Made by a program: the position numbers and the translations under genes
In this document: in pieces, positions 32,129 through 64,000 of the stretch
How the letters are laid out: the number at the start of each line of letters is the position of its first letter
Numbering within the stretch: the stretch's first letter is position 1
The notes under the pieces: model-generated
The model's database searches: none
The model's input: only the letters and a program-made list of their open reading frames with translations
What the model was told of the DNA's origin: nothing
Assembly: GCF_025717555.1 (NCBI RefSeq)
Contig: NZ_JAJIRP010000007.1
Span: 248,001-312,000, forward strand
DNA length: 64,000 bases
Reading direction: 5' to 3'
Source of the DNA: Paucibacter sp. B2R-40
GTDB taxonomy: Bacteria; Pseudomonadota; Gammaproteobacteria; Burkholderiales; Burkholderiaceae_C

Positions 32129-33295
<1,167 letters not shown>

Positions 33296-33464: not shown

Positions 33465-33514
33465 TTGGCTGCTTACCGCAGCAGCCTAGGCACACCCATG
33501 CCCACAGAGTCACC

Positions 33515-35881: not shown

Positions 35882-35905
35882 AGTTGTCAGGTTTGGCTTT
35901 GCTAA

Positions 35906-35921: not shown

Positions 35922-36101
35922 TGGCTTCTGCCGCACTGGCGGCACTGAACCCAGCAGGATTGCTGCACAGGCAGCAGCGCTGGGCTGCAACTGTTGCGGC
36001 TGATGCACTTGGGCGCGCCGGCTCGAGGCGAAGCCGCCGATCCTGCGTGGTACGTAACTTGCGGACTACACAGTTATTCGAATCAGACCTGGAAAGAACG
36101 C

Positions 36102-41593: not shown

Positions 41594-41623
41594 TGTGGAG
41601 GTCTCCGGGCTAAGGGTGTGGTT

Positions 41624-43021: not shown

Positions 43022-43024
43022 GGT

Positions 43025-46000: not shown

Positions 46001-46162
46001 GGCGCCGGGCAAGTTGGCAGAGACCGAGATGGTGGGCGAGTCAACCTCGGGCAAGGAGGCCACCGGCAGCAGCAGATAGGCCAAGCCGCCCAAGAGCAGC
46101 AGGCCCAAGGTCAGCAGCGTCGTGGCGACCGGCCGGCGGATGAAGGGCGCCGAAAAATTCAT
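43025..46162 (-). CDS. mdtC: RND efflux pump subunit, MdtC-like
   Basis: Inner-membrane proton-driven multidrug transporter of 1045 residues with 12 membrane helices and two large periplasmic loops. It has the opening [27 protein letters not shown], the transmembrane proton relay in [14 protein letters not shown] and a second-half helix [15 protein letters not shown]. Its start overlaps the mdtB-type stop by four bases (ATGA). In MdtABC the B and C subunits form a mixed trimer, and the same gene order here supports that role. Confidence 0.93.
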
Positions 46163-49100: not shown

Positions 49101-49332
49101 CCAGGCCCGGCATCTGACCGAACTGGCGCTCCAGCGGCGCGGTGATGGCGGAGGCAACCACCTCCGGGCTGGCGCCGGGGTAGAGGGTGGTGATCTGGAT
49201 GGTTGGGTAGTCCACCTCGGGCAGGGCCGAGACCGGCAGCAGCCGATAAGCCAGCAGGCCGGACAGCAGCACCGCCAGCATCAGCAAGGTGGTGGCGACG
49301 GGCCTCTCGATGAATAGCCGTGAAGGATTCAT
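46159..49332 (-). CDS. mdtB: RND efflux pump subunit, MdtB-like, with in-frame repeat insertion
   Basis: RND transporter of 1057 residues, paralogous to the next gene ([60 protein letters not shown]). In the first periplasmic loop, after ENVRLGAWA, a foreign stretch of about 28 residues ([19 protein letters not shown] and on to RRLSM) replaces the usual short loop before [13 protein letters not shown]. The DNA there is a palindromic GC-rich repeat element (48432-48503). The frame stays open, so the protein may still function. Start ATG 49332 is one base after the mdtA-type stop region. Confidence 0.92.
48432..48503 (-). repeat. Palindromic REP-like element inside mdtB
   Basis: About 72 bases rich in dyads: GGATGC-GAA-GCATCC (perfect) and CCCCCTCGGGGGG, bounded by GGCCGCCCC on one side and TGGGGGCACAC on the other. 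I recall the pattern TGCCCCCAC..CCTCCCCCCGAGGGGGCGC..GGGGCGGCC as a dispersed intergenic element of Burkholderiales. Here it has been exonised without breaking the reading frame. Confidence 0.7.
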
Positions 49333-49333
49333 C

Positions 49334-50914
49334 TCACTGACCTGCCTCGCGCTTGGCGCGTTCAGCACGGCGCTGCTCGATGAAGGCGCGGCGCTCGTCC
49401 GGGCTCATCGCGCGCAGCTTCTCGGCCAGCTCGGGCGGCAGGCGGCTGATAGAACCTTCGGGGCCGCTCGGCCCGCCTTGGCCAGCACCTTGGCCTCCAC
49501 CTTGACCACTGGCTCGGCCATCGCCGCCCTGGTGCTCGTTCCGAGCCGTCTCCTTGGGCGCTTTGTCAGCGGCGGGTGCAGCGCTAGAGGCCGCTGCCGG
49601 CGCACTGGCAGCGTCAGCACCGCGCTGCCCGCGCTTGCCGCCGCGCCCGCCACCACGCTCGGGCTGTCCGTCCTTGAACTGCGGCTTGATCACTTCGACC
49701 TGCGAGCCTTCGCGCAAGCGGTCCACGCCGTCGGTGACGATGCGCTCGCCGACTTGCAAGCCGGCACCTTGCACACTCACCCAGCCCTGGTCGCTCGCGC
49801 CGGCCTGCACGCGCTGCACGCTGACCGTTTTGTCCTCGCCGACGCGGTAGACGTAACTGCCTTGGCCGTCGCGCAAGAGCGCTGCGGCGGGCACGGCCAA
49901 CTGGTTCTCCAGCGTCGCCAATTGCAGGCGCACATTGACGAATTGGTTCGGGAACAGCGACAGGTCGGCATTCGGGAACGCCGCCTTCAGCTTGATGGTG
50001 CCGGTCGCGGCATCGATGGCGTTGTCGCTGCTGCCTAGCTGACCGACGGCCAAGCGGCGCAGGCCCTCGCGGTCCCAGGCTTCGACCTGCAGCTTTTGGC
50101 CGGCGGCCAGTTGTTCATTGAGGCGGCGCAAATGGATGTCGGGCACGGCGAACACCACATTGACCGGCTTGCTCTGCGCAATGCTGATCAGCCCGCCCAC
50201 ATCGCCGGGCTTGAGCACATTGCCCAGGTCCACCTGCTTGAGGCCGACCCGGCCCTCGATCGGCGCCACGATGCGGGTGTAGGACAGTTGCAGGCGCGCG
50301 TTGTCCACCAAGGCCTGGCCGATCTGCACCGTGCCTTGCAATTGCCGCACCTGGGCGGCTTGGGTGTCGACCTGCTGCTTGGCGATTGCGTCTTTGGCCA
50401 ACAGCTCGCGGAAGCGCTCTAGGTCCAGCCTTGCGTTTTGCAGCAAGGCCTGGTCGCGCGCCAGCTGGCCCTCGGTCTGCGCCAGATTGATTTGCAGCGC
50501 CCGGTCGTCCAGCTCGGCCAGCAGCGCGCCGGCCTTCACCCATTGGCCTTCCTTGAAATGGATGCGCTTGAGTTCGCCCTCGATCTTGGCCTTGACCACG
50601 GCGGTATTGGCGGCCGAGATGGTGCCGATGGCGCTGACCGTGACCTGGATATCGCGTTTGGCCACGCTCGCCACGCTGACCGGCTGGACGCGGCCGCCGC
50701 CAAAGCGGGCGCCGCTGGCGGGCTTGCCTGGCGCGCTGGCCGCGCCACTGGCCGAGGCGTTGCTGCCTGAGGAAGCGGACGATTCGCCGCGTTGTTGGGC
50801 ATAGGCCCACCAGGCGCCGCCAGCGCCCAAGGCCAGCAAGGTGGCGATGGCCCAGGGCAGGGCTCTTTGCCCGCTTGATTTAGGTGGAGCTGGCTTGTTT
50901 GGGGACGGGTTCAT
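49334..50914 (-). CDS. mdtA: RND periplasmic adaptor (MdtA-like) with long C-terminal extension
   Basis: Membrane-fusion protein of 526 residues that joins the pump to the outer-membrane channel. It has an N-terminal anchor ([22 protein letters not shown]), a lipoyl half-motif ([38 protein letters not shown]), a coiled-coil hairpin ([26 protein letters not shown]), a second lipoyl half and beta-barrel domains. After about residue 415 an extra 110 residues follow: a Gly/Ala/Ser/Gln-rich linker and a charged helix ([19 protein letters not shown]) absent from typical MdtA. It is the first gene of the pump operon. Confidence 0.93.
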
Positions 50915-50953: not shown

Positions 50954-51355
50954 TCAGCGCACCGGCTTGTATTCGTCGTGGCAGTCGTTGCAGGCGCGCG
51001 CAATCTTCAGCAGGCCATCGGCGGCGGCATCCATCTGCTGCGCCTGGATTTGCAGCACCGCCTGCGCGGCCAACTCTTTGCCTTCGCGCGAGATTGCGGC
51101 GGCGTCCAGCGGGCGGCCCGGCTGGCGGTAGAAGGTTTCCATCAGCGCATACAGCTCGCCCAGGCGGCGGGCATCGGTCGCGGCCGCTTCAAATTCGCCG
51201 CGCGCCAGACGCTGTTGGCTGGTCACGCTGAGCTTGTCGATCGCACGCATCCAGATGCCGAAGTCCAGCAAGCTGCCGCCTTGCGTGGCCGAGCTGGCCG
51301 TCACGGCAAAGCACAAGCAAAGCCAGGCCATGCATGCCAGCAAGAGACGTTTCAT
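50954..51355 (-). CDS. Small exported CxxCH cytochrome-like protein
   Basis: Protein of 133 residues with a signal peptide (MKRLLLACMAWLCLCFAVTASS) and a four-helix-type body ending in a haem c site CNDCH (ARACNDCHDEYKPVR). Haem attachment near the C-terminus with a preceding helical bundle is the layout of cytochrome c'/c556. Its start overlaps the stop of the upstream cytochrome gene by ATGA, so the two are coupled. It belongs to the leftward DUF1553/DUF1501 module. Confidence 0.8.
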   Translation of the reverse strand: MKRLLLACMAWLCLCFAVTASSATQGGSLLDFGIWMRAIDKLSVTSQQRLARGEFEAAATDARRLGELYALMETFYRQPGRPLDAAAISREGKELAAQAVLQIQAQQMDAAADGLLKIARACNDCHDEYKPVR

Positions 51356-51729
51356 TTGTAAACGTCGTGGCAAGCCTTGCAACTGCGCACCAGCTGGGTG
51401 ACCGAGCCGGAGGCCGCTTCAAAATCGCCCGCCTCGACCGACTGCAGAATCTGCCTGGCCAGCGCATGGGTTTTGCGGGCCATCTCGATACCGTCTGCGG
51501 CGTCGCCCTTGCCGACGTAATAGGCCTGCACCTGCTCAAAGGCGCCGACCAATTCTTTGGCCTCTTGAGCGGCTAACTTGGCCTCTTTCAGCGCGACATG
51601 CGAATCCAGGCTCTTCATCGTGTCTTCGATGGCACGCATATTGTCGGCATCGACCTCGTAACCGGCCGAGCCCGCGGGGCCGACCAAAATCATCAGCGTG
51701 ACGAGAAGAAATACAGCAAACCTAGGCAT
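51352..51729 (-). CDS. Small exported cytochrome c'-like protein
   Basis: Protein of 125 residues with a signal peptide (MPRFAVFLLVTLMILVGPAGSA), a helical body (NMRAIEDTMKSLDSHVALKEAKLAAQEAKEL) and a C-terminal haem site SCKACHDVYK. It is a clear relative of the protein encoded at 63375, which sits at the matching place in the rightward module. ATG 51729 fits the signal peptide, but no ribosome site is obvious. A terminator hairpin lies between it and the DUF1501 gene upstream, so it may have its own promoter or depend on read-through. Confidence 0.8.
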   Translation of the reverse strand: MPRFAVFLLVTLMILVGPAGSAGYEVDADNMRAIEDTMKSLDSHVALKEAKLAAQEAKELVGAFEQVQAYYVGKGDAADGIEMARKTHALARQILQSVEAGDFEAASGSVTQLVRSCKACHDVYK

Positions 51730-51763
51730 AAGCAAACAAGCAAAAGTTGTAATTGGTAAAGCC

Positions 51764-51799
51764 CACAAAACGAAGCCCGGTGAAACATCACCGGGCTTC
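51764..51799 (-). terminator. Terminator after the leftward DUF1501 gene
   Basis: Perfect 12-bp stem GAAGCCCGGTGA / TCACCGGGCTTC (51772-51783 with 51788-51799), four-base loop. On the minus strand it is followed by CGTTTTG. Confidence 0.8.
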
Positions 51800-51816
51800 A
51801 ATGGCGTGGCTGAAAA

Positions 51817-53247
51817 TTAGGCGAGGATGTCTTTCACCACTTCGCCGAACACCGTCGCGGGACGCTCGGCGCGGCCCTGGTAGGTGAAAGTGACCTTTTT
51901 GTGATCCAGGCCGAGCTGATGCAGGATGGTGGCTTGCAGGTCGTAGGTGTCGACGATGCCGCTGACCGCGCGTAGGCCGACCTCGTCCGTCGCGCCATAG
52001 GTGCCTGGCTTGATGCCGCCACCGGCCACCCATTGCGTATAGCCCCAGGGGTTGTGGTCACGGCCGTTGCCGCTCTGGCCGTACGGCGTGCGGCCGAACT
52101 CGCTGGTCCAGACCACCAGTGTCGTTTCCAGCAGGCCCAGCGCCTTCAGATCGGCCAGCAAGGCGGCCACCGGCTTGTCGACCTGCTTGGTCATCACGCT
52201 GTGGTTGCGCTCGATGCCGTTGTGTGCGTCCCAGCTGTCGACCGAGTTGTCGGGCGCGCCGGAGATGCAATGCACGAAACGCACACCGCGCTCGACCAAG
52301 CGGCGTGCGCGCAAGAGCGCTGTGCCGTACTCGTCGGTTTCCTTGGTGCCGATGCCGTAGAGCGCCTTGGTGGCGGCCGATTCCTTGCTCAGGTCCACCG
52401 CCTCAGGCGCCGAGGTTTGCATGCGGTAAGCCATGTCATAGCTCTTGGTGCGGGCTTGCAACTCGGTGTCGCCGGCGTATTTACCCGATTGGCGCTCATT
52501 GAGTTCCTTCAGCAGGCTCAGTGCATTGCGCTGCGCGTCATCGCTGACCAGGTCCGGGCGGGCCAGATGCAGGATCGGCGAATCGCCCTGGCGGAAGGCC
52601 GTGCCCTGGAACACCGCCGGCAAAAAGCCCGAGCTCCAGATCACCTGGCCACGGCCGCCACCGGCCGCGCCCTTGCCGGTGGGCAGGACCACAAACGCGG
52701 GCAAGTCGGGGTTGTTGGAGCCCAGCGCATATTGCACCCAGGCGCCCAAAGCCGGGCGGCCCGGCACCAGGCCGGCGGTGTGCAGCTTGAGCGAGGCGAT
52801 CACATGGGTGCTGCCATCGGTCTTGCTGCCCTTCAAGAAGGCGATGTCGTCCACCTGCTTGGCGATATTGGGCAACCAATCGGAGACCCAGGCGCCCGTC
52901 TCGCCGTATTGCTTCCAGGTGCGCTTGGTGGCCAAGAGATTGCCCACGCCACCATCGGTGGCGGTCTTGAGATTCTTGGCGAAGGAGTCCGGCAGCGGCT
53001 TGCCATTCAGCTTGATCAGATCGGGCTTGTAGTCATACAGGTCCAGCGAGCTGGGCGCGCCGGCCATATGCAGCCAGATGACGGCCTTGGCCTTGGCCGG
53101 GAAATGCGGCTGCTTCGGTGCTTGCGGGTCGTCAAGCTCGGAAGCCCAGGCGGCGCCTGAGATACCCAGGCCGGTCAGCCCACTGGCGGCCGCTGCGGCG
53201 GCACTGGCTTGGCCGAGGAAATTGCGACGGGAGGTCGTGTTGCTCAT
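51817..53247 (-). CDS. Tat-exported DUF1501 protein, leftward copy
   Basis: Protein of 476 residues with a twin-arginine signal (TTSRRNFLGQASAAAAAASGLTGLG). DUF1501 proteins belong, to my knowledge, to the alkaline-phosphatase/sulfatase superfamily. Visible family blocks are AVIWLHMAGAPSSLDLYDYKP near the mature N-terminus, LLRARRLVERGVRFVHCISG, DSWDAHNGIERNH, and the likely metal-ligand stretch VVWTSEFGRTPYGQSGNGRDHNPWGY. Its enzymatic substrate is unknown. It lies 22 bases after the DUF1549/DUF1553 gene, the standard pair order in Planctomycetes. The rightward copy at 61701 is closely similar. Confidence 0.9.
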   Translation of the reverse strand: MSNTTSRRNFLGQASAAAAAASGLTGLGISGAAWASELDDPQAPKQPHFPAKAKAVIWLHMAGAPSSLDLYDYKPDLIKLNGKPLPDSFAKNLKTATDGGVGNLLATKRTWKQYGETGAWVSDWLPNIAKQVDDIAFLKGSKTDGSTHVIASLKLHTAGLVPGRPALGAWVQYALGSNNPDLPAFVVLPTGKGAAGGGRGQVIWSSGFLPAVFQGTAFRQGDSPILHLARPDLVSDDAQRNALSLLKELNERQSGKYAGDTELQARTKSYDMAYRMQTSAPEAVDLSKESAATKALYGIGTKETDEYGTALLRARRLVERGVRFVHCISGAPDNSVDSWDAHNGIERNHSVMTKQVDKPVAALLADLKALGLLETTLVVWTSEFGRTPYGQSGNGRDHNPWGYTQWVAGGGIKPGTYGATDEVGLRAVSGIVDTYDLQATILHQLGLDHKKVTFTYQGRAERPATVFGEVVKDILA

Positions 53248-53269
53248 GATGTTGATGTCCTTGGATCGC

Positions 53270-55738
53270 TTAGAAGCGGTAGGTGAATTCATTGGCATTG
53301 GCCAGCGCATGCACCATGTCCACAAAGGCGGCGGCGCGGGCCGGATTGAGTTTGTTGGCTCCGGCCTTTTTGGCGGCAGTGCCGCCGGCGGCTGCGTCAT
53401 CGCCTTCTTCATCGCCAGGCTGTGCTTTGGCCAGTTTTTCCTGCTGGGTCTCCAGATGTTTGACGAAGGAGGCGCGCTCGAAGCGGTCGGCGCTGCGGCC
53501 CAGCATCGCCTGGTAGAACTTGTCGATCTGCTTGCTGGCGTCTTCGCTGACCCCAAAACCTTCCGGCTTGGGCAGCTTTTTGCCGTCGGCGATCTGCTTC
53601 TGCGTGATCGCCTCCTGGGCGTTCAAGAAGCCTTGCAGACGGGCCACTTCGGCCTTCTCAGGTGCGCGGGCATAGAGGATCTGATACAGCCGCTCGATCT
53701 GCGCCGTCTCGCTGCTCGGGGCCTCGCGGATCACGCGGCCGGCCAGCGCCTTGGACCAGTCATAAACCAGATCGCTGTTGAACAGGGTCAAGGCTTGCGG
53801 CGCGGTGGTGGTCACTTCGCGCTTGTTGTGCACCAGCTGCGGGTTGGCCCAGTCGAAAGTGTCCAGGAGCGGGTAGGGCGTGTTGCGGCGCACGAAGACA
53901 TAGAGGCTGCGGCGGTGGTGGTCATGCGGGTTCTCGCTGGTGGGCCAGGCCTGGCGCTGGCCGCCGATGTCCATATTCGGCGGCAGGGGAGGGTAGACGG
54001 CCGGGCCGCCGAGCTTTTCTTCCAGCAGGCCGGAGGCGGCCAGCAGCGAGTCGCGCAGCTGTTCGGCTTCAAGGCGCTGGCGCGGGAAGGCCCACAGCAG
54101 CTTGTTGGCCGGGTCAATCACCTGCGTGTCAGTGCGTGGCAGCGAGCTTTGGCGGTAGACGGCCGACAGCCAAATCTCTTTTTGCAGCTTCTTGACGCTC
54201 CAGCCGTTCTTGACGAAGTTGCTCGCCAGGTAGTCGATCAACTCGGGGTGCGTGGGCTTGGAGCCCATGCGGCCGAAGTCGCTGACCGTGTCGACGATGC
54301 CGGTGCCGAAGGTCTCGGTCCACAGGCGGTTGACATAGACGCGCGAGGTCAGTGGGTTATCGGCGCTGGCCAGCCAGTCGGCCAAGGCGGCACGTCGACC
54401 CGATGAGTTAGGAAAGGGCTTGATCTCGGGCTGCTTGCTGCTCAGCAGCGCCGGCACACCGGGCTGCACCTCGGCCAGGGGCTGGTCGAAAATGCCCTTG
54501 AACAACACATAAGTCGGCGGCGCATCGGCATGGCCGAGTTCGGTCATGGTGGAGACTTGGCCAGGGTCCTTGGGCTTCAGATGGTCGAACTTCTTCAGCT
54601 CGGCTGCCAGCGCCTCGTACTTGGCATAGGCTTCCTTGTCCTTGGTCTTCAGCGTGGTGGCGGCATTGCGGGTGCGGCCCTGCAGCGTCCACAGATTGCG
54701 GTGATAGATCCAGCGGTCATAGGCGTTACGTTCGGCGGCGGGCTTGGTGATGGACTCGCGCGTCGCGGGCACAAAGCCTGACAGGCGGTCGCTCTCGGCT
54801 TTTTCGATCACCGGCTTGAGCAAGGCGTCCTGCTGGGCGCGGATGTCCTTGGTCGCCTCTTCCCATTTGCTCAGTTTGAGGTCGTAGTCGGCCAGCTCCT
54901 TGCCCTGCAGCGGCTTGACGTCATCGCGCCAGCTGGCATTGACGAAATAGGCCTGGAATTGGTAATACTCTTTTTGCGTGATCTTGTCAGATTTGTGATC
55001 GTGGCATTGCGCGCAATTGAAGGTGGTGCCGAGGAAGACCGAGCCGACCGTGTCGGTCAGGTCGTTGGCGACTTCTTGCTTCTTCAGATTCAGGTCGCGC
55101 GCATTGACTTCGTCGGGGAAGTTGCGCAGAAAACCTGTCGCCACCAGGGCCTCGGTGTTATTGGGCCAGAGCTCATCACCGGCGATCTGTTCCTTGATGA
55201 AGCGATCAAAAGGCTTGTCCTGGTTGAAGGCATTGACCACGTAGTCGCGGTAGCGCCAGATATTCGGGCGGGTGCCGTCGGCGTTGTAGCCGTCGCTGTC
55301 GGCATAACGCGACAGGTCCAGCCAGCGGCGGCCCTGGCGCTCGCCATAGCGCGGCGAAGCCAGCAGGCGGTCGATCAGCTTCTCATGTGCCTTGGGCGAT
55401 TTGTCATTGACGAAGGCCTTGACTTCTTCGGGCGTCGGGATCAAGCCCCAGGCATCCAGCGTGGCGCGGCGGATGAAGGTGGCACGGTCGGCCTCGGGCG
55501 AGGGCTTGAGGTTTTTGGCCTCCAGTTTGGCCAACACAAAGCCGTCAATCGGTGAACGCACCCAGCCCTTGAGCTTGACCTCAGGGTCAGCGGGACGCTG
55601 CACGGGCTGATAGGCCCAGGCCTTGGCGGCAGGGGCTTTGGCGACGGCGGCTTCTGCCGGCACGGAAGTGGTTTCGGCCGCATGGACGGACAGGGTCGAG
55701 AGACCCAATAAAACGGCGGCGCTGAAAGTCTTTTTCAT
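53270..55738 (-). CDS. DUF1549/DUF1553 (PSCyt2/PSD1) protein, leftward copy
   Basis: Exported protein of 822 residues (signal MKKTFSAAVLLGLSTLSVHA). The DUF1549 part (about 50-260) includes IRRATLDAWGLIPTPEEVKAFV, RWLDLSRYADSDGYNADGTRPNIWRYRDYVV and a haem c-like motif CAQCH (near residue 238) in NCAQCHDHKSDKITQKEYYQ. The DUF1553 part (about 480-800) includes SGRRAALADWLASADNPLTSRVYVNRLW, the THPELIDYLAS block and VTTTAPQALTLFNSDLVYDWSKALA. Such proteins are abundant in Planctomycetes and rare in Proteobacteria, and no function is established. ATG 55738 follows AAGGTT. Confidence 0.9.
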   Translation of the reverse strand: MKKTFSAAVLLGLSTLSVHAAETTSVPAEAAVAKAPAAKAWAYQPVQRPADPEVKLKGWVRSPIDGFVLAKLEAKNLKPSPEADRATFIRRATLDAWGLIPTPEEVKAFVNDKSPKAHEKLIDRLLASPRYGERQGRRWLDLSRYADSDGYNADGTRPNIWRYRDYVVNAFNQDKPFDRFIKEQIAGDELWPNNTEALVATGFLRNFPDEVNARDLNLKKQEVANDLTDTVGSVFLGTTFNCAQCHDHKSDKITQKEYYQFQAYFVNASWRDDVKPLQGKELADYDLKLSKWEEATKDIRAQQDALLKPVIEKAESDRLSGFVPATRESITKPAAERNAYDRWIYHRNLWTLQGRTRNAATTLKTKDKEAYAKYEALAAELKKFDHLKPKDPGQVSTMTELGHADAPPTYVLFKGIFDQPLAEVQPGVPALLSSKQPEIKPFPNSSGRRAALADWLASADNPLTSRVYVNRLWTETFGTGIVDTVSDFGRMGSKPTHPELIDYLASNFVKNGWSVKKLQKEIWLSAVYRQSSLPRTDTQVIDPANKLLWAFPRQRLEAEQLRDSLLAASGLLEEKLGGPAVYPPLPPNMDIGGQRQAWPTSENPHDHHRRSLYVFVRRNTPYPLLDTFDWANPQLVHNKREVTTTAPQALTLFNSDLVYDWSKALAGRVIREAPSSETAQIERLYQILYARAPEKAEVARLQGFLNAQEAITQKQIADGKKLPKPEGFGVSEDASKQIDKFYQAMLGRSADRFERASFVKHLETQQEKLAKAQPGDEEGDDAAAGGTAAKKAGANKLNPARAAAFVDMVHALANANEFTYRF

Positions 55739-55928
55739 GGCTGAACCTTGGATGGCTAGAGGTGGCTTCAAGCCTTGTACGCAAAATCCGCGCCAGCTTT
55801 TTTGCTGGGCGCTTGCGCTGATTTGCTTCGTTTTCAACAGCACATTGGGCGATGGCTGCTGTTATTCGAGCAGTGAGTGACCCTGTGCTGCTGCGACCGC
55901 AACAGCGCAGGGCTTCAAACGGCTAAGG
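55739..55928. promoter_or_regulatory. Intergenic dyads of GCTGTTGAA type before the leftward module
   Basis: Contains TTCAACAGC at 55833-55841, GCTGTT at 55858-55863, and the dyad GCTGCTGC-GACC-GCAACAGC at 55887-55906. The same words recur at 58932-59091 before the TonB receptor and the rightward module, suggesting one shared operator. Confidence 0.5.
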
Positions 55929-58733
55929 TCAGATCTTGCCGGTGAACGAGATCGCGAAGGAGCGCGGCACCGCCGGCGAAGTGCTGTTCCATGTCTGCGA
56001 CTGCGGCGTCTTGTCATTCAGCAAATTCTTGGCCAGCAACATCACTTCGAAGCCCTTGTCGCGCCGACCAAAGCCGATGCCGGCATCGACCACATAGCTG
56101 GACGGGATCACCGAATAGATCGACAAAGCGTTATCCGAGTAGTAGCTGCTGCTATAGGCCAGATTGACGCTGCCGCGCACAATCTTGTCGCCCGCCACCG
56201 GCAGGTTGTAGTCGCCGCCGACATTGAAGCTGTACTTCGGCGCGCCGGGCAACTGGCGACCACTCAAATCCTTGCCCGCCGGCACGGCCACATTGCCTTC
56301 TTCAACCGGGAAGCCCGCATTAGGGAACTTGTCGTAAGTGACGTTGTTGAGTGCGCCCGAGAAGCGCAGCGTGGTATTCCTGATGCCGCTGTAGAAGCCG
56401 TCCAGTTCCAGACCGTAGAGCTTCACGCGCGGCACATTGCCGGTGATGCCGGCGTAGACGGGAATCGCCTTCGGATCAGCGGCCACCGCCTGTTCGGTCG
56501 CGTAGTCATCAATCACCCGCACCAACTGTTGGTAGTTGGTGATCCTGGACTGGTAGACGGCAGCATTCAGAATCAAGCTGCGACCCAGCAGCGCCGACTT
56601 CACGCCGAGCTCGAAGCTGTCGGTTTTCTCGGCTTCAACCGCGTAAGGCTTGCCGTTGTAGACCTGCGCGATGCCGGCCTTCTCGCCATGCTGGAAGGAG
56701 GCATAGGTCGTGACATCCGGGTTGACCTTGTAGCTCGGGCTCAGCAGCAGGGTCGGCTGGGTCGCCTTGTACGGTGTGGCTTCCACATCATTGGACAGCA
56801 CGCCGACGGCAGCCTTGCGGATCGCTTGCGCGTAAAAGAGTTGCTTCTTCTGCGCGTCGGTCAAGGCGGCCCAGTTGGCGGCGTTGAAGTACTTCTTGGC
56901 CGCGAAGTCGGCTTGCTTTTGGCCGGTGGCGACTGCTGCAGCGTCACGGCTGTCGGTCGTCAGCGCGTATTTTCCGGCTGCCACCAGGGTGGCACCGGGG
57001 GTGCCAGCGGCCACCGTATTGCCGTTCAAGGCCCATTTGTCGGTCTTGCCGTTGTTCCAGAACGAGTCAAAGCCACCGAGCTTGACGCCATTGATGGACG
57101 AAGCATTCAGCTCAGGCGCGCTGCCGTTCTCAAAAATGCGCGAGCCGACGGTGTTCTGCCTGTCTTCGCGGGTGACGCGCGCGCCAGTGGTTACGGTCCA
57201 AGCCGGGCTGAGATTCCAGTTGGCCTGACCAAAAATCGCCGCACTCTTGTTTTGAATGGCCTGCACGCCGCCGGTATCTCTCAAGCCGCCGCGCAGATGA
57301 GCGAGTGAGCTTTGCAGCAGATAACGGCCATTGCCATCGGCGTCGAGGGCGGCGTATTGCGCGTCACTGGCCAGGTTGGCGCCAGCGTCGTTGCCGAAGC
57401 CCTTGTTATAGGTGGCGTCGTTCTTGACGCTCAGCAAATACAGCCCGGCTTGATAGTCGACGAAGCCTCCGGTGGCCGAGGTGATGCGGAATTCTTGGCT
57501 GACTTGGCTGTAATCGTTCCAGTAGCCGCCGGCATTGCGCGCAATATCAAACGGCGAGTTCTCGTCGTTATAGGCGTTGAAGTGGTAGTCCTTGTAAGCG
57601 GTGATCGAGGTCAGCGTATGGCTGCCCACGTTCCAGTTCAGGTCGGCGGTAGCGCCCTTGCTGCCGGTGACCAGCGGGCGAGCCGCGTCGTTGATGATGT
57701 TGTTGTCAGCCAGCTCGGGCGAGTAGGCCTTGTTGTCCTTGAACCAGCGCCGCTCAAACTTTGAAACCGCTGTAGCCACCGGCTCGCCGTTCAAATAGGT
57801 CGGGGGGGTGGGCTTGCTGAAGCTGCGGCCGTTGGTGGACTCGCCGGCGCGTGGCTGCAAGTCAAAGGACAAGCGGGCGTTGAAATCCTGGGTTGGCGTC
57901 AGCAGGAATTGCAAGCGCCCGGACACGCGGTCCTTGTTGGTGTAGGTGACGTCGGGGTTGTAGATATTCTTGATATCGCCTTCGCCGCGATTGACCGAGA
58001 AGGCCACCCGGTAGGCCAGCAAGTCATCGATGACGGCGCCGCCGGCAGCGGCCGAGGCGAACAGGCCGCGGTCCTGGCGGAACTCCAGCTTGTAGTCGGC
58101 CGTCGAAGTGAAGGACGGCTTGCGGGTATTGAAGATCAGCGTACCGACGCTGTTGTTCTTGCCCAGCAAGGTGCCCTGCGGGCCGCGCGTAACTTCAACC
58201 GTGTCGATGTCGACGAAGTCAAAGCTGGAGGTCAGCGCGTTGTAGGCATAGGCCACGCCGTCCACGATGACGCCGACACTGGGGTCTTGCGCCTCGGTCT
58301 GGCCGACCTTGCCGATGCCTCGGATTGCGATGCTGCTGGTGCGCTGGTTGCCCAGGTTCCAGGACACATTGGCCGCGCGGCGGGTCACGGCCTCGATGCC
58401 GTAGGCGCTCAGGCGTTCGATCTCCGTGCCTTGCACGACCGAGATCGACAAGGGCACATCTTGCAAGCGCTCGATACGCACGCGGCTGCGTACGGTGATG
58501 CCGTCCAGAGCCAGGGCATCGCTGCCGCTGGCTGCATCTGCCGCCTTGGCGGTGTCGGCGGCTTTGGCTGTGTTGCCTGTGGTGCCTGTGTTGGCGGCTT
58601 CGGTCGCGGCCGTTTGTGCAAAGACCGAGGCGCTGCCAAACAGGCCCACAAAGGCCAGGGCGATCGGTGCCAGACGGAAGCCGGCTTGGGCGCGGCGGTT
58701 GTTTGACGGGATAGAGAAATGCTTGTTGCTCAC
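55929..58733 (-). CDS. TonB-dependent outer-membrane receptor
   Basis: Receptor of about 934 residues. The signal peptide (FRLAPIALAFVGLFGSASVFA) leads to a plug domain (about 70-215: ITVRSRVRIERLQDVPLSISVV, IRGIGKVGQTEAQDPSVGVIVDGVAY, VEVTRGPQGTLLGKNNSVGTL) and a 22-strand barrel ending SFAISFTGKI with a terminal hydrophobic/charged strand. The plug is of the CirA/FyuA-like type common in oligosaccharide or catabolic receptors (RGPQGTLLGKN). No N-terminal signalling domain is present. I chose GTG 58733 because it starts a normal signal peptide and AGG lies six bases upstream, but an ATG at 58799 is possible. It is flanked on both sides by DUF1553 modules. Confidence 0.88.
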   Translation of the reverse strand: MSNKHFSIPSNNRRAQAGFRLAPIALAFVGLFGSASVFAQTAATEAANTGTTGNTAKAADTAKAADAASGSDALALDGITVRSRVRIERLQDVPLSISVVQGTEIERLSAYGIEAVTRRAANVSWNLGNQRTSSIAIRGIGKVGQTEAQDPSVGVIVDGVAYAYNALTSSFDFVDIDTVEVTRGPQGTLLGKNNSVGTLIFNTRKPSFTSTADYKLEFRQDRGLFASAAAGGAVIDDLLAYRVAFSVNRGEGDIKNIYNPDVTYTNKDRVSGRLQFLLTPTQDFNARLSFDLQPRAGESTNGRSFSKPTPPTYLNGEPVATAVSKFERRWFKDNKAYSPELADNNIINDAARPLVTGSKGATADLNWNVGSHTLTSITAYKDYHFNAYNDENSPFDIARNAGGYWNDYSQVSQEFRITSATGGFVDYQAGLYLLSVKNDATYNKGFGNDAGANLASDAQYAALDADGNGRYLLQSSLAHLRGGLRDTGGVQAIQNKSAAIFGQANWNLSPAWTVTTGARVTREDRQNTVGSRIFENGSAPELNASSINGVKLGGFDSFWNNGKTDKWALNGNTVAAGTPGATLVAAGKYALTTDSRDAAAVATGQKQADFAAKKYFNAANWAALTDAQKKQLFYAQAIRKAAVGVLSNDVEATPYKATQPTLLLSPSYKVNPDVTTYASFQHGEKAGIAQVYNGKPYAVEAEKTDSFELGVKSALLGRSLILNAAVYQSRITNYQQLVRVIDDYATEQAVAADPKAIPVYAGITGNVPRVKLYGLELDGFYSGIRNTTLRFSGALNNVTYDKFPNAGFPVEEGNVAVPAGKDLSGRQLPGAPKYSFNVGGDYNLPVAGDKIVRGSVNLAYSSSYYSDNALSIYSVIPSSYVVDAGIGFGRRDKGFEVMLLAKNLLNDKTPQSQTWNSTSPAVPRSFAISFTGKI

Positions 58734-58805
58734 TGAGGACCTGCTCTTGGTTATGGGTTGTGCTGTTGTCGAGTTTGAAACTGCGTACAACGAACTCATA
58801 AGCAC

Positions 58806-59293
58806 AGGCCGTGCCTAGCAGAAAAGCTTATATACATATGCGCAACAGGCCAGAAACATCTGAGTTTTTGCCTTGTTTTCGACCGCTACTTGAATCCCTG
58901 AGTCAATCTATGAATCTCAGAGATTTCTGCTGCTGAAAATTCAACAGCGCGGCAGCAGCAAAGTGAGTTTCGCTGTTGAGAAAACAGCAGTCGATTTTTC
59001 GCAAGACCTCGGTAAATTCATTGTGTGAGCGCTGCTGCCAGGGCAGCAGCTCACGCATCTAGGTGTTGAAAAACCAGCGAATGCTGTTGAATTACTGGCT
59101 GCATAAATCAAATGAGCTCATGCGCTCTTTGAATATATTGATGAATCAAGGGCTTAGCTTGGTTTTTCATTTGATTTCAGAATATTTAAAACAGGCACGG
59201 AGCTTGCTAACCAAGACCTCAGTCACAGAGAGTTTTGTCAGCCTGTCTATCCATCCAATCTTTGAAACTCAAATAGGTGATTGAGGTCAACGC
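58806..59293. promoter_or_regulatory. Dyad-rich divergent promoter region
   Basis: About 490 AT-richer bases with no gene. It holds GCTGCTGAAAATTCAACAGC (58929-58948, one mismatch from a palindrome), GCTGTT-GAGAA-AACAGC (58972-58988, perfect arms), a longer hairpin GTGAGC..TGCTGCC / GGCAGCA..GCTCAC (59025-59054), and GTGTTGAA (59063-59070) and GCTGTTGAA (59083-59091). On the minus strand TATAAG near 58830 could be the -10 box of the receptor gene. The motifs match those in 55833-55906. Confidence 0.6.
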
Positions 59294-61663
59294 ATGAATA
59301 AGAAAAAAGAACTGTATTTTTCGCTTGCACTGGGTTTGCTCGCGCTGTCATCGGCCTGGGCAGCACCGGAAAAAGCTGCTGCTCTGGATGCGGCCGCCAG
59401 CGCCAAACCCGCCGCAGCCAAAGCCTGGTCGGCTTACGGGCCGGTGCAAGCACCTGCCGTGCCCACGGTCAAAGCGGCTCAGTGGGTGCGCTCTCCCGTC
59501 GACGCCTTCGTGCTGGCCAAGCTGGAAACCGCCGGCCTCAAGCCCAGCAAGGATGCCGAGCGTGGCGCCTATATCCGCCGCGCCACCTTGGATGCCTGGG
59601 GCCTGCTGCCCACGCCCGAAGAGGTCAAAGCCTTTGTCGAGGACAAGTCGCCGCAGGCTTACGAGAAGCTGGCCGACAGGCTGCTGGCCTCGCATCATTT
59701 CGGCGAGCGCCAGGCGCGACGGTGGTTGGACCTGGCCCGTTATGCCGACAGCTCAGGTTTTCAGAACGACACCACGCGGCCCAATAACTATCTGTACCGC
59801 GACTATGTGATCAATGCCTTCAACAAGGACAAGCCCTTTGATCGCTTTGTGAAGGAGCAGATCGCCGGTGACGAGCTCTATCCGGATGACCAGGAGGCCA
59901 AGATTGCCACCGGCTTCATCGCCGGTTATCCGGACAACGCCAATTCGCGCGATATGGTGCAGCGCAAATACCAGATCGAGACCGACATCACCGACCTGGT
60001 CGGCGAGACCCTCTTGGCCAGCACCATCGGTTGCGCCCGCTGCCATAACCACAAGGCCGATCGGGTCAGCCAGAAGGAGTACTTCCAGCTGCAGGCCTTT
60101 TTTGCCAACACATCGTTTGAGGACCGCTCCGCGCTGAAGGAAAAGCCCGCCGTCGACCCCGAGTTCGACAAGGCGCAAAAAGCCTATCAGGCGCTGACCA
60201 AGGATATCCGCGACAAGCAGCGCGCGCTCACGGCAAAGTACACCGCCGCCGGCGTCAAATACCAAAAAGAGCGCTATCTGACCGACACCCGCGATGCTTT
60301 GTTCAAGCCCGAGCAGGAATGGACGGCGCTGGACCGCTGGGTCAATTTCCGCCACAAGCATGTCTCCACCGATACACAGGCGGCGCAGGCTTATTTGCGC
60401 CTGGCCGGCGAAGACAGCAATTTCGAGGCGCACACGCCCGAAGTCGTGGCCGACTGGAAGGAATACCAAAGGCTGAGCGCCGAGCTGGCCAAGTTCGATA
60501 AGCAAAAGCCAAAACCTGCCAACGAAGGCTTGACCAATAACTTCACCACCGCGCTGGAGCTGAGCAAGGAAGTGCCGCCGACTTTTGTGCGCTTTGGCGG
60601 TGTGCATGAAAAGCCCACCGACGAGGTCAAGCCCGGCATTCCGGCTTTGTGGCTCGCCGGTGGCGCTCAGCCCGAAATCGTGCCCACGGATAAAAGCTCG
60701 GGTCGCCGCGCCGCATTGGCCAGTTGGTTGACTAACGACAAAAACCCGCTGACCGCACGCGTCTATGTCAACCGCATCTGGAGCCAGTATTTCGACAAGG
60801 GTCTGATCACGACGGTACAGGACTTCGGCCGTGCCGGCGCCAAGCCCACGCATCCGGAGCTGCTGGACTGGCTGGCCGCCGACTTCGTCAAGAAGGGCTG
60901 GAGCGTCAAGCAGCTGCACCGCGAAATTCTGCTGTCCAGCGCCTATCGCCAGTCCTCGGACGAGCGCAAGGAAGTGGTCAAGATCGACCCGGAAAACAAG
61001 CTGCTGGCCGTCTTCCCGCGCAAGCGTCTGGAAGCGGAAGAGCTGCGTGACTCGCTGCTCTTTGCCTCGGGTCAGTTGGTCGACAAGGTCGGTGGCCCGG
61101 GCGTGTTCCCGCCCGTGCCCAAGCAGCTCGGCGCCGGCAATCTCTGGCAAGAGCCGCGCAATGATGACGAATCGCGCCGCCGCAGTATCTACACCTTTGT
61201 ACGCCGCAGCGTGCCTTACCCCTTGACCGTCAACTTCGACCCAGCCAACCCGGTGCAGCCGCATCACAAGCGCGATGTGACGACCACGCCGCTGCAGGCG
61301 CTGACGCTGTTCAACAGCGATGTGACCTTCGCCTGGTCGCAAGCACTGGCCGGCCGCGTCATCAATGAAGCGATCAAGAGCAGCAAGGGCGGCAAGGCCG
61401 ACGAGAACGCTCAGCTTGACCGCTTGTACGAGACCTTGTTTGCCCGCGTGCCGACCAAGGCCGAACGCGCGGCGCTGGTGGCCTTCCTGGACCAACAGGA
61501 GAAGCTGATCGCCAGCAAGAGCCTGAGCGGCGGCAAGTTTGAAGTGGCCGTGCCTACCGGCCTGAAGCAGGCCGATGCGGCGGGCAACCCGCTGCGTGCC
61601 GCGGCCTTTGTGGACTTGGTTCACACGGTGGCCAATTCCAACGATTTTGCGTACCGGTTCTGA
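59294..61663 (+). CDS. DUF1549/DUF1553 (PSCyt2/PSD1) protein, rightward copy
   Basis: Exported protein of 789 residues (signal ending LSSAWA), homologous over its whole length to the leftward copy: YIRRATLDAWGLLPTPEEV, RWLDLARYADSSGFQNDTTR, the haem-like CARCH near residue 247 in GCARCHNHKADRVSQKEYFQ, SGRRAALASWLTNDKNPLTARV, and TTTPLQALTLFNSDVTFAWSQ near the end. The spacer between the two domains and the tail differ, so the copies are old duplicates or separate acquisitions. GAGG lies about seven bases before ATG 59294. It starts a rightward operon with DUF1501, cytochrome-like and redoxin genes. Confidence 0.9.
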   Translation: MNKKKELYFSLALGLLALSSAWAAPEKAAALDAAASAKPAAAKAWSAYGPVQAPAVPTVKAAQWVRSPVDAFVLAKLETAGLKPSKDAERGAYIRRATLDAWGLLPTPEEVKAFVEDKSPQAYEKLADRLLASHHFGERQARRWLDLARYADSSGFQNDTTRPNNYLYRDYVINAFNKDKPFDRFVKEQIAGDELYPDDQEAKIATGFIAGYPDNANSRDMVQRKYQIETDITDLVGETLLASTIGCARCHNHKADRVSQKEYFQLQAFFANTSFEDRSALKEKPAVDPEFDKAQKAYQALTKDIRDKQRALTAKYTAAGVKYQKERYLTDTRDALFKPEQEWTALDRWVNFRHKHVSTDTQAAQAYLRLAGEDSNFEAHTPEVVADWKEYQRLSAELAKFDKQKPKPANEGLTNNFTTALELSKEVPPTFVRFGGVHEKPTDEVKPGIPALWLAGGAQPEIVPTDKSSGRRAALASWLTNDKNPLTARVYVNRIWSQYFDKGLITTVQDFGRAGAKPTHPELLDWLAADFVKKGWSVKQLHREILLSSAYRQSSDERKEVVKIDPENKLLAVFPRKRLEAEELRDSLLFASGQLVDKVGGPGVFPPVPKQLGAGNLWQEPRNDDESRRRSIYTFVRRSVPYPLTVNFDPANPVQPHHKRDVTTTPLQALTLFNSDVTFAWSQALAGRVINEAIKSSKGGKADENAQLDRLYETLFARVPTKAERAALVAFLDQQEKLIASKSLSGGKFEVAVPTGLKQADAAGNPLRAAAFVDLVHTVANSNDFAYRF

Positions 61664-61700
61664 ACGCCCTTCATTCAACAAACATCGACGAGAAAAAGCA

Positions 61701-63161
61701 ATGAGCAATAACAACGCAAGACGCGACTTCATCCTCCGCACCGGCGGCGCCGGCCTGGCTCTGTCTGGCTTGATCCCCGGCCTGGGCGGATTCCAGGCGG
61801 CACTGGCTTCCGAGCTAGCCGATCCGCTGGCGCCCAAGAGCCCGCATTTCGGCACCAAGGTCAAATCGGTGATCTGGCTACATCAAAACGGCGCGCCCAG
61901 CACCCTGGACCTGTATGACTACAAGCCCGAGCTGCAAAAGCTCGCCGGCCAAGCCGTGCCGGCCTCCTTCATGAAGGGCATCAAGACCAGCACCCAGGGC
62001 GGCGTCAACAAGCTCTGGGTGTCGAAAGAGCGGACCTGGAAGCAGTACGGCGAAAGCGGTGCCTGGTTCTCCAATCTGCTGCCGAATCTGGCCGAGCATG
62101 CCGACAAGATCGCTTTCATCAAGTCCAGCGTGACGGTAGGCGCCACGCATGACATCTCCATCCTCAAGCTCAACACGGGCGATCTGAACCCCGGTCGGCC
62201 TTCGCTGGGCGCCTGGGTCAGCTATGCGCTGGGCAGCGCCAACCCGAATTTGCCGCCCTACGTGGTGCTGTACAACAGCGACCGTGAACCCAGTGCCGGC
62301 TCGCAGAACTGGAACTCGGGCTTCTTGCCCGCCGTCTACCAGGGCACGGCCTTCCGCGAGGGCGATTCGCCCATCCTCTATCTGGATCGCCCCGAGCTGC
62401 GCACGGCCAAGCAGCAACGCAGCCAGTTGGACCTGCTCAAGCACTTGAACACCAGCAGCGCGGCGCGCTACCCGAACGACAGCGAGTTGCGCGCGCGCTT
62501 GCGTGCCTATGAGCTGGCCGAGCGTATGCAAGAGGCCGCGCCCGATGCGGTCAGCCTGGCGACGGAAAGCGACGCTACCAAAAAGCTTTACGGCATCGAC
62601 GGTATCAACGATAGGGTCAGCGAAAGCTATGGCGAGGTTCTGCTGCGCGCGCGCCGCCTGGTCGAGCGCGGTGTGCGCTTTGTGCAAGTGGTGTCCGGCT
62701 ATCCCAAGGGTTCGGAAAACGAGAACCGCCGCAGCTGGGACGCGCACAACAACCTGGATGAGAACCATGGCGTGATGGCCAAGATGGTGGACAAGCCGAT
62801 CGCCGGTCTGCTGGCTGACCTGAAGTCGCGCGGCCTGCTGGAGTCGACCCTGGTGGTCTGGACCTCGGAGTTCAGCCGCACGCCTTGGGGCGAAAGCGGC
62901 TCCGGCCGCGACCACAACCCATGGGGCTACACGACCTGGCTGGCCGGCGGCGGCGTCAAGGCCGGCACGACCTATGGCGGCACCGACGAGATCGGCCTGC
63001 AAGTGGCCGACAAGGACACCGCGGTCGACACCTATGACCTGCATGCCACCGTGCTGCAGCTCCTGGGACTGGACCATCTGAAGACCACTTATCTGAACAA
63101 CGGCCGCTCCGAGCGCCCGACGGTGGTCTACGGCAAGGTCATCAAGGAATTGCTGGCTTAG
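61701..63161 (+). CDS. Tat-exported DUF1501 protein, rightward copy
   Basis: Protein of 486 residues with the twin-arginine signal NARRDFILRTGGAGLALSGL. It is homologous to the leftward copy throughout (SVIWLHQNGAPSTLDLYDYKP, LLRARRLVERGVRFVQVVSG, RSWDAHNNLDENHGVMAK, VVWTSEFSRTPWGESGSGRDHNPWGY). The gap to the upstream DUF1549/1553 gene is 37 bases. Family membership suggests a metal-dependent phospho- or sulfo-hydrolase-like fold, but no activity can be assigned. Confidence 0.9.
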   Translation: MSNNNARRDFILRTGGAGLALSGLIPGLGGFQAALASELADPLAPKSPHFGTKVKSVIWLHQNGAPSTLDLYDYKPELQKLAGQAVPASFMKGIKTSTQGGVNKLWVSKERTWKQYGESGAWFSNLLPNLAEHADKIAFIKSSVTVGATHDISILKLNTGDLNPGRPSLGAWVSYALGSANPNLPPYVVLYNSDREPSAGSQNWNSGFLPAVYQGTAFREGDSPILYLDRPELRTAKQQRSQLDLLKHLNTSSAARYPNDSELRARLRAYELAERMQEAAPDAVSLATESDATKKLYGIDGINDRVSESYGEVLLRARRLVERGVRFVQVVSGYPKGSENENRRSWDAHNNLDENHGVMAKMVDKPIAGLLADLKSRGLLESTLVVWTSEFSRTPWGESGSGRDHNPWGYTTWLAGGGVKAGTTYGGTDEIGLQVADKDTAVDTYDLHATVLQLLGLDHLKTTYLNNGRSERPTVVYGKVIKELLA

Positions 63162-63249
63162 CAAAGAGGAAGGGAAGAAGCGAGAGGAAGGAAGAAGCGA
63201 GAGGAAGGAAGAAGGGGAGGAAGATGAAGAAGGAGAGGAAGTAGGGGGA
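63162..63249 (+). repeat. Polypurine tract with 17-bp tandem units
   Basis: Directly after the DUF1501 stop, about 85 bases are almost pure G and A on the plus strand. Units of the form GAAGAAGCGAGAGGAAG repeat about four times with increasing divergence. Homopurine mirror-like tracts can form triplex DNA or pause polymerases. It has no coding sense. Confidence 0.85.
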
Positions 63250-63250
63250 T

Positions 63251-63281
63251 GCCCGCAGGTGCTTATACATGGCCTGCGGGC
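63251..63281 (+). terminator. Hairpin terminator candidate after the polypurine tract
   Basis: Perfect 9-bp arms GCCCGCAGG (63251-63259) and CCTGCGGGC (63273-63281) with a 13-base loop, followed by CTAACCTTTAATTT. The T-run is weak, so termination may be partial and allow expression of the cytochrome gene downstream. Confidence 0.55.
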
Positions 63282-63374
63282 CTAACCTTTAATTTCTACG
63301 CATGCTGCCTTTGTTTGCTCAATTCGCCCAATTCGCTTTATTCGCTTCGCTCCATTCGTTTCGATCCAATAACT

Positions 63375-63800
63375 ATGTTGAACAGATCCACAAGAATTCG
63401 CCGCCCGGGGCTCGCCGCTTGGGCGCCTCGGCTATTGCTCAGCCTGGGCTTGAGCCTGGCTTGCGGCCTGGCCGGCTCCGCAGAGGGCGAGCTGGACATT
63501 GACCTGATGCAAACCATCGAGGACTTGAACAAAAGCCTGGCCTCGAATATTGCGCTTCGCGACGTCAAGGCCAGCAGCTCGGACGCGCGCGAACTGCAGC
63601 CGCTGTTCGCACAAGTCGAGGCGCATTTCAGCGCCAAGGGCGACGCGCTGGATGCGGTAGAGCTGGCCAAGAAAAGCAAGGAACTCAGCGCCGCCATCAT
63701 CAAGCAAGTAGGCGCCAGCCAATTCGATGCCGCCACCGACTCGGCCACCGCGATTTCGCGTGCCTGCCGCAGCTGCCACACCTTCTACAAAAAATCCTGA
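63375..63800 (+). CDS. Small exported cytochrome c'-like protein, rightward copy
   Basis: Protein of 141 residues with a basic N-region and signal peptide (LLLSLGLSLACGLAGSAEG), a helical body (LMQTIEDLNKSLASNIALRDVKASSSDAREL) and a haem site CRSCHTFYKKS at the C-terminus. It matches the protein at 51352 in layout and many residues, including the ALRDVK/ALKEAK helix and the FDAA/FEAA segment before the haem motif. The leader upstream contains imperfect ATTCGC repeats (63318-63362). Confidence 0.82.
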   Translation: MLNRSTRIRRPGLAAWAPRLLLSLGLSLACGLAGSAEGELDIDLMQTIEDLNKSLASNIALRDVKASSSDARELQPLFAQVEAHFSAKGDALDAVELAKKSKELSAAIIKQVGASQFDAATDSATAISRACRSCHTFYKKS

Positions 63801-63819
63801 AAAGAGAAAGATCCTCAAC

Positions 63820-64000
63820 ATGAAACTCAAACTTGCTTTGCTCACCACATTGTTGGCCATCGTCCTGCCCAGCCAAGCTGCACTGAAGGCCGGCGACCTC
63901 GCCCCTGACTTCAAGGTCGAGGCTGCGCTGGCCGGCAAGGCTTATAGCTACGCGCTGAAAGACGCGCTGAAAGCCGGCCCGGTCGTCGTGTACTTCTACC
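63820..64000 (+). CDS. Redoxin/peroxiredoxin-family exported protein (cut by window edge)
   Basis: Only the first 60 codons are visible: a signal peptide (MKLKLALLTTLLAIVLPSQA) followed by AGDLAPDFKVEAALAGKAYSYAL and PVVVYFY, the typical opening of AhpC/TSA-type redoxins, where the peroxidatic Cys follows the VVxYFYP strand. The Cys itself lies beyond the window. It starts 19 bases after the cytochrome stop and belongs to the rightward module. It suggests periplasmic peroxide or thiol chemistry as part of the pathway. Confidence 0.82.
   Translation, partial: MKLKLALLTTLLAIVLPSQAALKAGDLAPDFKVEAALAGKAYSYALKDALKAGPVVVYFY

Follow-up and report, generated by a model that had tools for sequence, protein, structure and literature searches.

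In Paucibacter sp. B2R-40, two divergent gene modules (A and B), each encoding a DUF1549/DUF1553 (PSCyt2-PSD1) c-haem protein and a DUF1501 protein, flank the gene for a TonB-dependent receptor. We analyzed the 64,000-nucleotide stretch that contains them (contig NZ_JAJIRP010000007.1, positions 248,001 to 312,000, forward strand), hereafter the window, from a genome of 5.6 Mb in total. Both modules, the receptor gene, the gene sbp for a sulfate-binding protein and a sulfatase gene probably constitute one SfnR-type sigma-54 regulon that is switched on in sulfate starvation and serves the scavenging of organosulfur compounds. The regulon as such is well supported by sequence, and we infer induction by sulfate starvation, import of organosulfur compounds and a division of labour among the encoded proteins. 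The literature searched contained no report of a function for this cassette or of its control by an SfnR-type activator; what is new here is its placement in an SfnR-type sigma-54 regulon. The genes at the center of the argument are:

50954-51355, minus strand: small exported CxxCH protein of module A, c'-like (CNDCH; PF01322 18.5 bits, under the cut-off)
51352-51729, minus strand: cytochrome c' of module A (CKACH; PF01322 28.7 bits, over the cut-off)
51817-53247, minus strand: DUF1501 protein of module A, of the twin-arginine translocation (Tat) type (PF07394, E 2e-131)
53270-55738, minus strand: DUF1549/1553 (PSCyt2-PSD1) c-haem protein of module A (PF07583, PF07587; CAQCH)
55929-58733, minus strand: TonB-dependent receptor, start uncertain (PF07715 plug, E 1e-13; PF00593 barrel, E 5e-25)
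59294-61663, plus strand: DUF1549/1553 (PSCyt2-PSD1) c-haem protein of module B (PF07583, PF07587; CARCH)
61701-63161, plus strand: Tat-type DUF1501 protein of module B (PF07394, E 2e-130; structural model with a predicted local distance difference test score, pLDDT, of 83.9)
63375-63800, plus strand: small exported CxxCH protein of module B, c'-like (CRSCH; PF01322 14.8 bits, under the cut-off)
63820-64000, plus strand: exported peroxiredoxin, crossing the window edge and ending at L003:14404 (thiol peroxidase model E 7e-17, under the cut-off)
30686-31702, minus strand: Sbp, substrate-binding protein of a sulfate ATP-binding cassette (ABC) transporter (NF008022)
32129-33295, minus strand: SfnR-type sigma-54 activator (PF00158, E 2e-66, residues 23-186; N-terminal sensor domain absent)
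33515-35968, minus strand: sulfatase of the formylglycine type (PF00884, E 2e-60; CAPTR motif), with the true start probably at 35809 within the annotated open reading frame

The evidence for common control comes from the promoter regions. Each of the five operon heads in the window, i.e., those of modules A and B, the receptor, sbp and the sulfatase, carries a -24/-12 site and a palindrome upstream of it. Sigma-54 sites were scored with a -24/-12 matrix (threshold 11.5), and the 20-base palindrome, GCTGYTGM-N4-KCARCAGC, was obtained by de novo search upstream of such sites. The elements in the window are:

31957-31972, minus strand: sigma-54 site of sbp, TGGCACTGAACTTGCT (score 17.0)
32096-32115, unstranded: SfnR-type enhancer palindrome of sbp (20.3 bits; 19.1 with the genus held out)
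35906-35921, minus strand: sigma-54 site of the sulfatase, TGGCCCGGTAGTTGCT (score 15.5)
35959-35978, unstranded: SfnR-type enhancer palindrome of the sulfatase (19.3 bits; 18.3 with the genus held out)
55780-55795, minus strand: sigma-54 site of module A, TGGCGCGGATTTTGCG (score 11.7)
55887-55906, unstranded: SfnR-type enhancer palindrome of module A (23.9 bits; 23.6 with the genus held out)
58801-58816, minus strand: sigma-54 site of the receptor, AGGCACGGCCTGTGCT (score 12.4, weak)
58929-58948, unstranded: SfnR-type enhancer palindrome of the receptor (25.7 bits; 25.6 with the genus held out)
58972-58991, unstranded: second palindrome in the gap between receptor and module B (17.6 bits)
59031-59050, unstranded: SfnR-type enhancer palindrome of module B (22.9 bits; 22.0 with the genus held out)
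59193-59208, plus strand: sigma-54 site of module B, AGGCACGGAGCTTGCT (score 16.0)

The same layout recurs in other genomes. Sigma-54 sites were found upstream of 17 of 18 PSD1 genes, 12 of 14 genes for a rhodanese-like protein, 8 of 15 receptor genes and 2 of 3 sulfatase genes, and module A genes proved positive in 10 of 10 cases with scores of at least 11.7. As a background, the threshold is also reached by 21 of 241 unassigned genes in the vicinity, and shuffled upstream regions averaged 0.15 to 0.78 sites per group, their maxima ranging from 1 to 4. When each genus was held out in turn, a palindrome of at least 12 bits was present in 34 of 39 promoters as opposed to 0 of 39 reversed promoters. 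These 39 are not all independent, since palindromes are shared where receptor and rhodanese promoters diverge; promoters with sigma-54 scores below 11.5, short upstream regions and all sfnR upstream regions were excluded, and the motif was trained without genome G001, which is near-identical to G000. Over 928 kb scanned, 23 palindromes of at least 20 bits were counted versus none in the reversed sequence, and 81 versus 19 at 15 bits or more. Across the source genome, the palindrome occurs with up to two mismatches at 276 places per strand, compared with 127 for the backward control. Among ten such places chosen outside the window (nine stretches), one on C34, intragenic and without mismatch, has a sigma-54-like sequence (12.9) in range; none was found in range of the nine others, two of which were called intergenic and one of which scores below 15 bits. 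No palindrome of at least 15 bits was found near the two other Sbp copies of this genome.

The identity of the activator was approached through its relatives. Three of 2,467 matching plasmid records were examined, and two of them proved to be sfn loci. The top-ranked plasmid homologue, from Burkholderia pyrrocinia (55% identity), adjoins msuE, sfnG and sfnB, and a palindrome of 21.9 bits, scored with a motif learned without that locus, is separated by 169 bases from the sigma-54 site (score 15.3) that precedes msuE-sfnG. In Paraburkholderia hospita (activator 56% identical), a palindrome of 22.3 bits and a sigma-54 site of 15.2 stand before the genes for MsuE and SfnG, both above their NCBIfam cut-offs, and a palindrome of 15.3 bits precedes an SfnB-like gene under its cut-off. 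In the third record, an unannotated Variovorax sequence, a sigma-54 site and two palindromes of lower score stand before further genes. In genome G1012, which belongs to another family, an activator homologue is accompanied by genes judged by eye to be SsuD-like and SfnG-like, and palindromes of 20.1 and 17.1 bits lie in this locus between two divergent sigma-54 sites. The SfnR family model was absent from the NCBIfam output for the window activator. Since the same enhancer and a sigma-54 site precede msuE-sfnG in loci with a regulator 55-56% identical, we classify the window activator, by sequence, as SfnR-type. Passages in two publications link SfnR to sulfate starvation and CysB (PMC8234197, PMC13352529).

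The cassette is rare in the genomes sampled, and most copies lie near an activator homologue. PSCyt2 scored above cut-off in 2 of 18 genomes of the genus and 14 of 299 of the family, each count including the source genome, with DUF1501 adjoining; a fifteenth family genome gave a weak match (22 bits) and lacks the cassette. In the class sample (369 genomes) only the source genome exceeded the cut-off, and in the phylum sample (378 genomes) only the source genome and G1012. The nearest named relative, Paucibacter sp. TC2R-5, has a module B protein 96% identical. In 16 loci (G001 added), some of them cut by contig ends, gene order is retained with losses: receptor, PSD1, DUF1501, one or two c'-like proteins, peroxiredoxin, dihaem cytochrome, SMP-30 or dienelactone hydrolase, cytochrome c' and a lectin-like protein. 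The receptor is present in 14 of these loci, 9 of which also have its energising genes, and ccm genes are present in 7. In G1012, the genes for PSD1, DUF1501, a c'-like protein, peroxiredoxin, dihaem cytochrome, SMP-30 and cytochrome c' likewise stand together, and two receptors, another cytochrome c', ccm genes and b561 lie within 30 kb. The first-pass annotation of this DNA had staked its reading on conserved neighbours, and the receptor, DUF1501 and haem-protein genes indeed recur together as a unit, both in further genera and in a second family. In 13 of 15 genomes the best activator homologue is no more than 30 kb away from the cassette, where 0.18 such cases would be expected; for Sbp the numbers are 8 of 15 and 0.38. 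The 15 genomes represent 11 genera and are thus not 15 independent cases. These counts exclude two partial Sbp matches, the second activator of G112 and the regions G046b, G046c, G059b-d and G025, which had been chosen by their SfnR, Sbp or rhodanese matches.

Nine clusters of otherwise unassigned neighbours recur in at least three genera, and one member of each was scanned (eight in NCBIfam, five in Pfam). Scores above cut-off were obtained for an SsuD alkanesulfonate monooxygenase (596.6 bits vs 518.2; 24-33 kb from the cassette in two genomes), an O-acetylhomoserine sulfhydrylase (614.2 vs 495.1), a serine acetyltransferase of the EpsC type (167.6 vs 150) and CysT (420 vs 246.1), the cluster of the latter stemming partly from regions chosen for Sbp. 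Three others remained under their cut-offs, namely a nitrate/taurine/sulfonate-type ATPase, an SsuC-like permease and an SsuA-like binding protein. The clusters not related to sulfur comprise a serine hydrolase and one without a Pfam match. Neither ccm nor SfnR genes are specific to cassette genomes: ccmF occurs in all 14 of them and also in 109 of the 285 others, and SfnR in all 14 and in 16 of the 285.

Several observations weigh against a sulfur regulon of this scope. Sigma-54 sites precede only 2 of 13 sbp genes, both from Paucibacter, and 3 of 10 ExbB genes, numbers that the shuffled controls also reach at their maximum (2 and 3, respectively), and none of 13 activator (sfnR) genes has such a site upstream. 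A good palindrome is absent from 5 of the 39 held-out promoters. Although a sigma-54 site was found for the G1012 cassette, no palindrome there scores above 8.7, and the surrounding 60 kb yielded no match to SfnR, Sbp or ExbB. The rhodanese-like protein encoded near the cassette lacks the catalytic cysteine, its loop SN(H/R)xxRAG being cysteine-free in 15 aligned orthologues, and neither DUF1501 protein of the window contains the formylglycine motif C-x-P/A-x-R. Finally, a plasmid of the gammaproteobacterium Saccharobesus litoralis carries a related set (L118:17851-26812; DUF1549/1553, DUF1501, hypothetical protein, cytochrome c, cytochrome b, LamG, TonB receptor) amid genes for pectin and glycoside hydrolase family 88 (GH88) functions, and no palindrome of at least 12 bits was found in 38 kb of this locus. 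Because of this pectin context without palindrome and the weak palindrome in G1012, the biochemical role of the cassette may extend beyond sulfur; both cases would be reconciled with a sulfur regulon if the substrate were a sulfated polymer.

The Saccharobesus locus also speaks for the strongest competing explanation, namely carbon acquisition, in which the cassette would handle glycans or other polymers imported by the receptor and the link to sulfur would be coincidental or explained by sulfation of the glycans. Many of the loci contain SMP-30 or dienelactone hydrolase genes, and part of one study describes verrucomicrobial PSCyt genes near sulfatase genes, some of them encoding carbohydrate-binding modules (PMC5615132). 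We nevertheless regard this explanation as improbable, given that most of the neighbours recurring in the family are sulfur genes, that no glycoside hydrolase family is found among the nine clusters and that control is of the sigma-54 and SfnR type. Alternatively, a cassette for general periplasmic redox or peroxide work could have been recruited for times of sulfur shortage without releasing any sulfur itself. The peroxiredoxin, the several cytochromes, b561 and the absence of a known sulfur enzyme inside the cassette would fit, as would the induction of antioxidants in sulfur starvation mentioned in part of one report (PMC12581299). However, the pairing of a dedicated receptor with energising genes (9 of 16 loci) points towards import of a substrate, and redox work by itself leaves DUF1501 unexplained, which makes such recruitment decidedly unlikely. 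Uptake of a metal or siderophore-like metal complex has very little in its favour: TonB receptors often import metal complexes and the receptor weakly matches the FoxA model of NCBIfam, but with 20.6 bits against a cut-off of 1300, and its control looks SfnR-type.

At the protein level, two modules with a CxxCH-containing DUF1549/1553 protein and a DUF1501 protein each, as first annotated, were confirmed by Pfam (DUF1549/PSCyt2, E 9e-84 and 2e-78; DUF1553/PSD1, E 2e-92 and 1e-92). The PSCyt2-PSD1 proteins of the window have a single CxxCH (CAQCH in A, CARCH in B), of which C247, C250 and H251 are invariant in 38 aligned relatives. Apart from the start methionine, H251 and H253 are the sole Met/His residues conserved at 85% or more in these relatives. 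A five-coordinate, reactive haem is therefore possible; two further histidines, invariant within the 19 Proteobacterial copies, could provide a sixth ligand. The structural model (pLDDT 83.1) had no match in the PDB at E of at most 0.001, and the weak cytochrome c matches of the family profile fall on an N-terminal stretch, the single CxxCH of the window proteins being located elsewhere. For DUF1501, the predicted Tat export also agrees with the sequence: a twin-arginine motif is visible by eye at the start, and R7 and R8 are invariant in 48 relatives, as are S67, H150, D347, H349, E390, H405 and D446. In line with the fold assignment made earlier, the DUF1501 model resembles sulfatases and alkaline phosphatases as well as lipoteichoic acid synthases in the PDB. 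The best Foldseek match, 1p49, has an E-value of 2.3e-6 at a low template modeling score of about 0.35, and profile matches to sulfatases reach only E 0.04 to 1. DUF1501 thus shares the fold of type I sulfatases but not their formylglycine motif; one of the window proteins contains one cysteine, the other none. The term "c'-like" for the small cytochromes is apt, as one of three exceeds the PF01322 cut-off of 26.5 bits and two fall below it. The TonB receptor between the modules and the redoxin to the right, which recurs alongside the cassette in other loci, are likewise as described.

The earlier assignment to a periplasmic redox pathway holds in so far as the unit recurs and the DUF1501 fold fits, but it overlooked the SfnR-type sigma-54 regulon. 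Its extent, 50954-64000, was also drawn too narrowly: everything placed there is present, but the unit continues for about 10 kb past position 64000 on the strand of module B, and linked genes lie at 26704-35968. Past the edge follow the rest of the peroxiredoxin gene, a dihaem cytochrome, SMP-30, a cytochrome c' (PF01322 107 bits, over the cut-off), a lectin-like protein with weak endostatin/DUF1554 matches, and ccmABCEFGHI. The latter (named by eye) constitute, at L004:3715-10242, a full operon for cytochrome c maturation of the System I type and contain the single ccmF copy of the genome. The Rfam scan yielded nothing at the gathering threshold and the tRNA scan none. The linked genes, which together with sbp, the activator and the sulfatase are also found near the cassette in other genera, are:

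26704-27588, minus strand: cytochrome b561 (Ni_hydr_CYTB; PF01292, E 2e-21), adjoining the rhodanese-like gene and found with the cassette in other genera
27643-28173, minus strand: exported rhodanese-like protein (PF00581, 23.9 bits vs 22.2)
28213-28911, minus strand: TonB-like protein, named from position and appearance (no Pfam match)
28919-29380, minus strand: ExbD (E 3e-21 or 3e-28, the values of the two copies)
29403-29828, minus strand: ExbD, second copy (E 3e-21 or 3e-28)
29866-30603, minus strand: ExbB (E 5e-31)

Sbp (C48:278695-279648) scores 518.1 bits against NF008022 (cut-off 288). The rhodanese-like protein occurs in 14 of 14 cassette genomes and in 1 of 285 others (p 4e-23); as a sign of sulfur chemistry it was dropped because of the missing cysteine. 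In the odd genome G025 (65% complete), a rhodanese-like gene adjoins sulfonate-type ABC genes (L152:1-5416) and PSCyt2 was not matched; the contig ends after the ABC genes, and the assembly may lack a cassette that the organism has. A palindrome of 23.3 bits at 27695-27714 falls within the 3'-terminal part of the rhodanese-like gene and is located some 107 bases upstream of the cytochrome b561 gene, with no sigma-54 site of at least 13 found in range. At 36033-36063, a sigma-54-like site, TGGTACGTAACTTGCG (first base 36048, plus strand, 13.1), has the palindrome in common with the sulfatase and faces an HtrA-like gene (36174-37628), which may be a further member of the regulon. Elsewhere in the window, the region between the sulfur genes and module A (38835-50914) holds genes for both a molybdopterin-binding oxidoreductase and the small subunit belonging to it, followed by an outer-membrane-factor-like gene and genes for two resistance-nodulation-division (RND) pumps and a fusion protein. 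A caspase-like protein (Peptidase_C14, E 6e-21) is encoded at 19614-20693, followed at 21517-25292 by three large proteins whose scanned parts have no Pfam match.

The two modules had been described as a duplication. Two are indeed present, but the word misleads. In midpoint-rooted trees of PSD1 and DUF1501 with ten distant relatives as outgroup, Proteobacterial copies form a single clade (100/100). Module B, including the Saccharobesus copy, is a supported clade in both trees (100/99), and module A is one in the DUF1501 tree (100/99) and an unresolved set in the PSD1 tree. Both types are present in several genera. A recent tandem duplication is ruled out by these trees, and the clade support identifies modules A and B as old paralogues. 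The pairs of planctomycetes, verrucomicrobia, acidobacteria and bacteroidota resemble those of Proteobacteria in the adjacency of the two proteins and the invariant CxxCH, but the latter are set apart as one clade in both trees. Beside the pair in 78 non-Paucibacter loci, c'-like, ccm, rhodanese-like and SfnR genes were not matched by a single-sequence search, which distant versions can escape.

Taken together, the cassette bears the DNA switches of sulfate starvation, and its gene pair thus probably helps in sulfur uptake from organic compounds. In the mechanism we propose, the receptor, powered by ExbB-ExbD-ExbD-TonB, would carry an organic sulfur compound that is scarce or bulky into the periplasm, where it would be acted on jointly by the DUF1501 protein, exported via Tat, and the PSCyt2-PSD1 protein with its c-type haem. 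The cytochromes c' and the dihaem cytochrome would exchange electrons with the quinone pool via cytochrome b561, the peroxiredoxin would clear peroxide, and SMP-30, or dienelactone hydrolase in other genomes, would open a product. Sulfate or sulfite freed in this way would be assimilated, sulfate through Sbp, while the ccm genes would produce the haem proteins. The genes sfnG, sfnB and msuE share with the cassette a homologous activator, the palindrome, the -24/-12 layout and ssu-type neighbours. The enzymes of the sfn system are cytoplasmic flavin-dependent monooxygenases according to a passage in one of the papers cited above (PMC8234197). The Paucibacter cassette, by contrast, is predicted to encode periplasmic c-haem and DUF1501 proteins along with a TonB receptor. 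It is a tentative proposal, with chances just short of even, that PSCyt2-PSD1 and DUF1501 represent a new class of periplasmic c-haem system freeing sulfur from TonB-imported organics. To our knowledge, such a class would differ from the established scavenging routes, i.e., flavin monooxygenases, Fe/2-oxoglutarate dioxygenases and formylglycine sulfatases. The sft/ats sulfate-ester operons of Pseudomonas combine receptor, sulfatase and sulfur-starvation control as does the Paucibacter locus, but we know of no c-type haem proteins or DUF1501 in them.

With its placement in the regulon, the pair can be studied under sulfate limitation as the growth condition, by deletion of the regulator sfnR and with growth on organosulfur compounds as the readout, and betaproteobacteria, with one or two copies of the pair instead of dozens, offer a culturable test host. 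More than 95% of soil sulfur is organic, as stated in a passage of one article (PMC4267179). If the proposed function is true, a haem-based route would be added to organosulfur use, and a gene pair with dozens of copies in planctomycetes would receive its first function.

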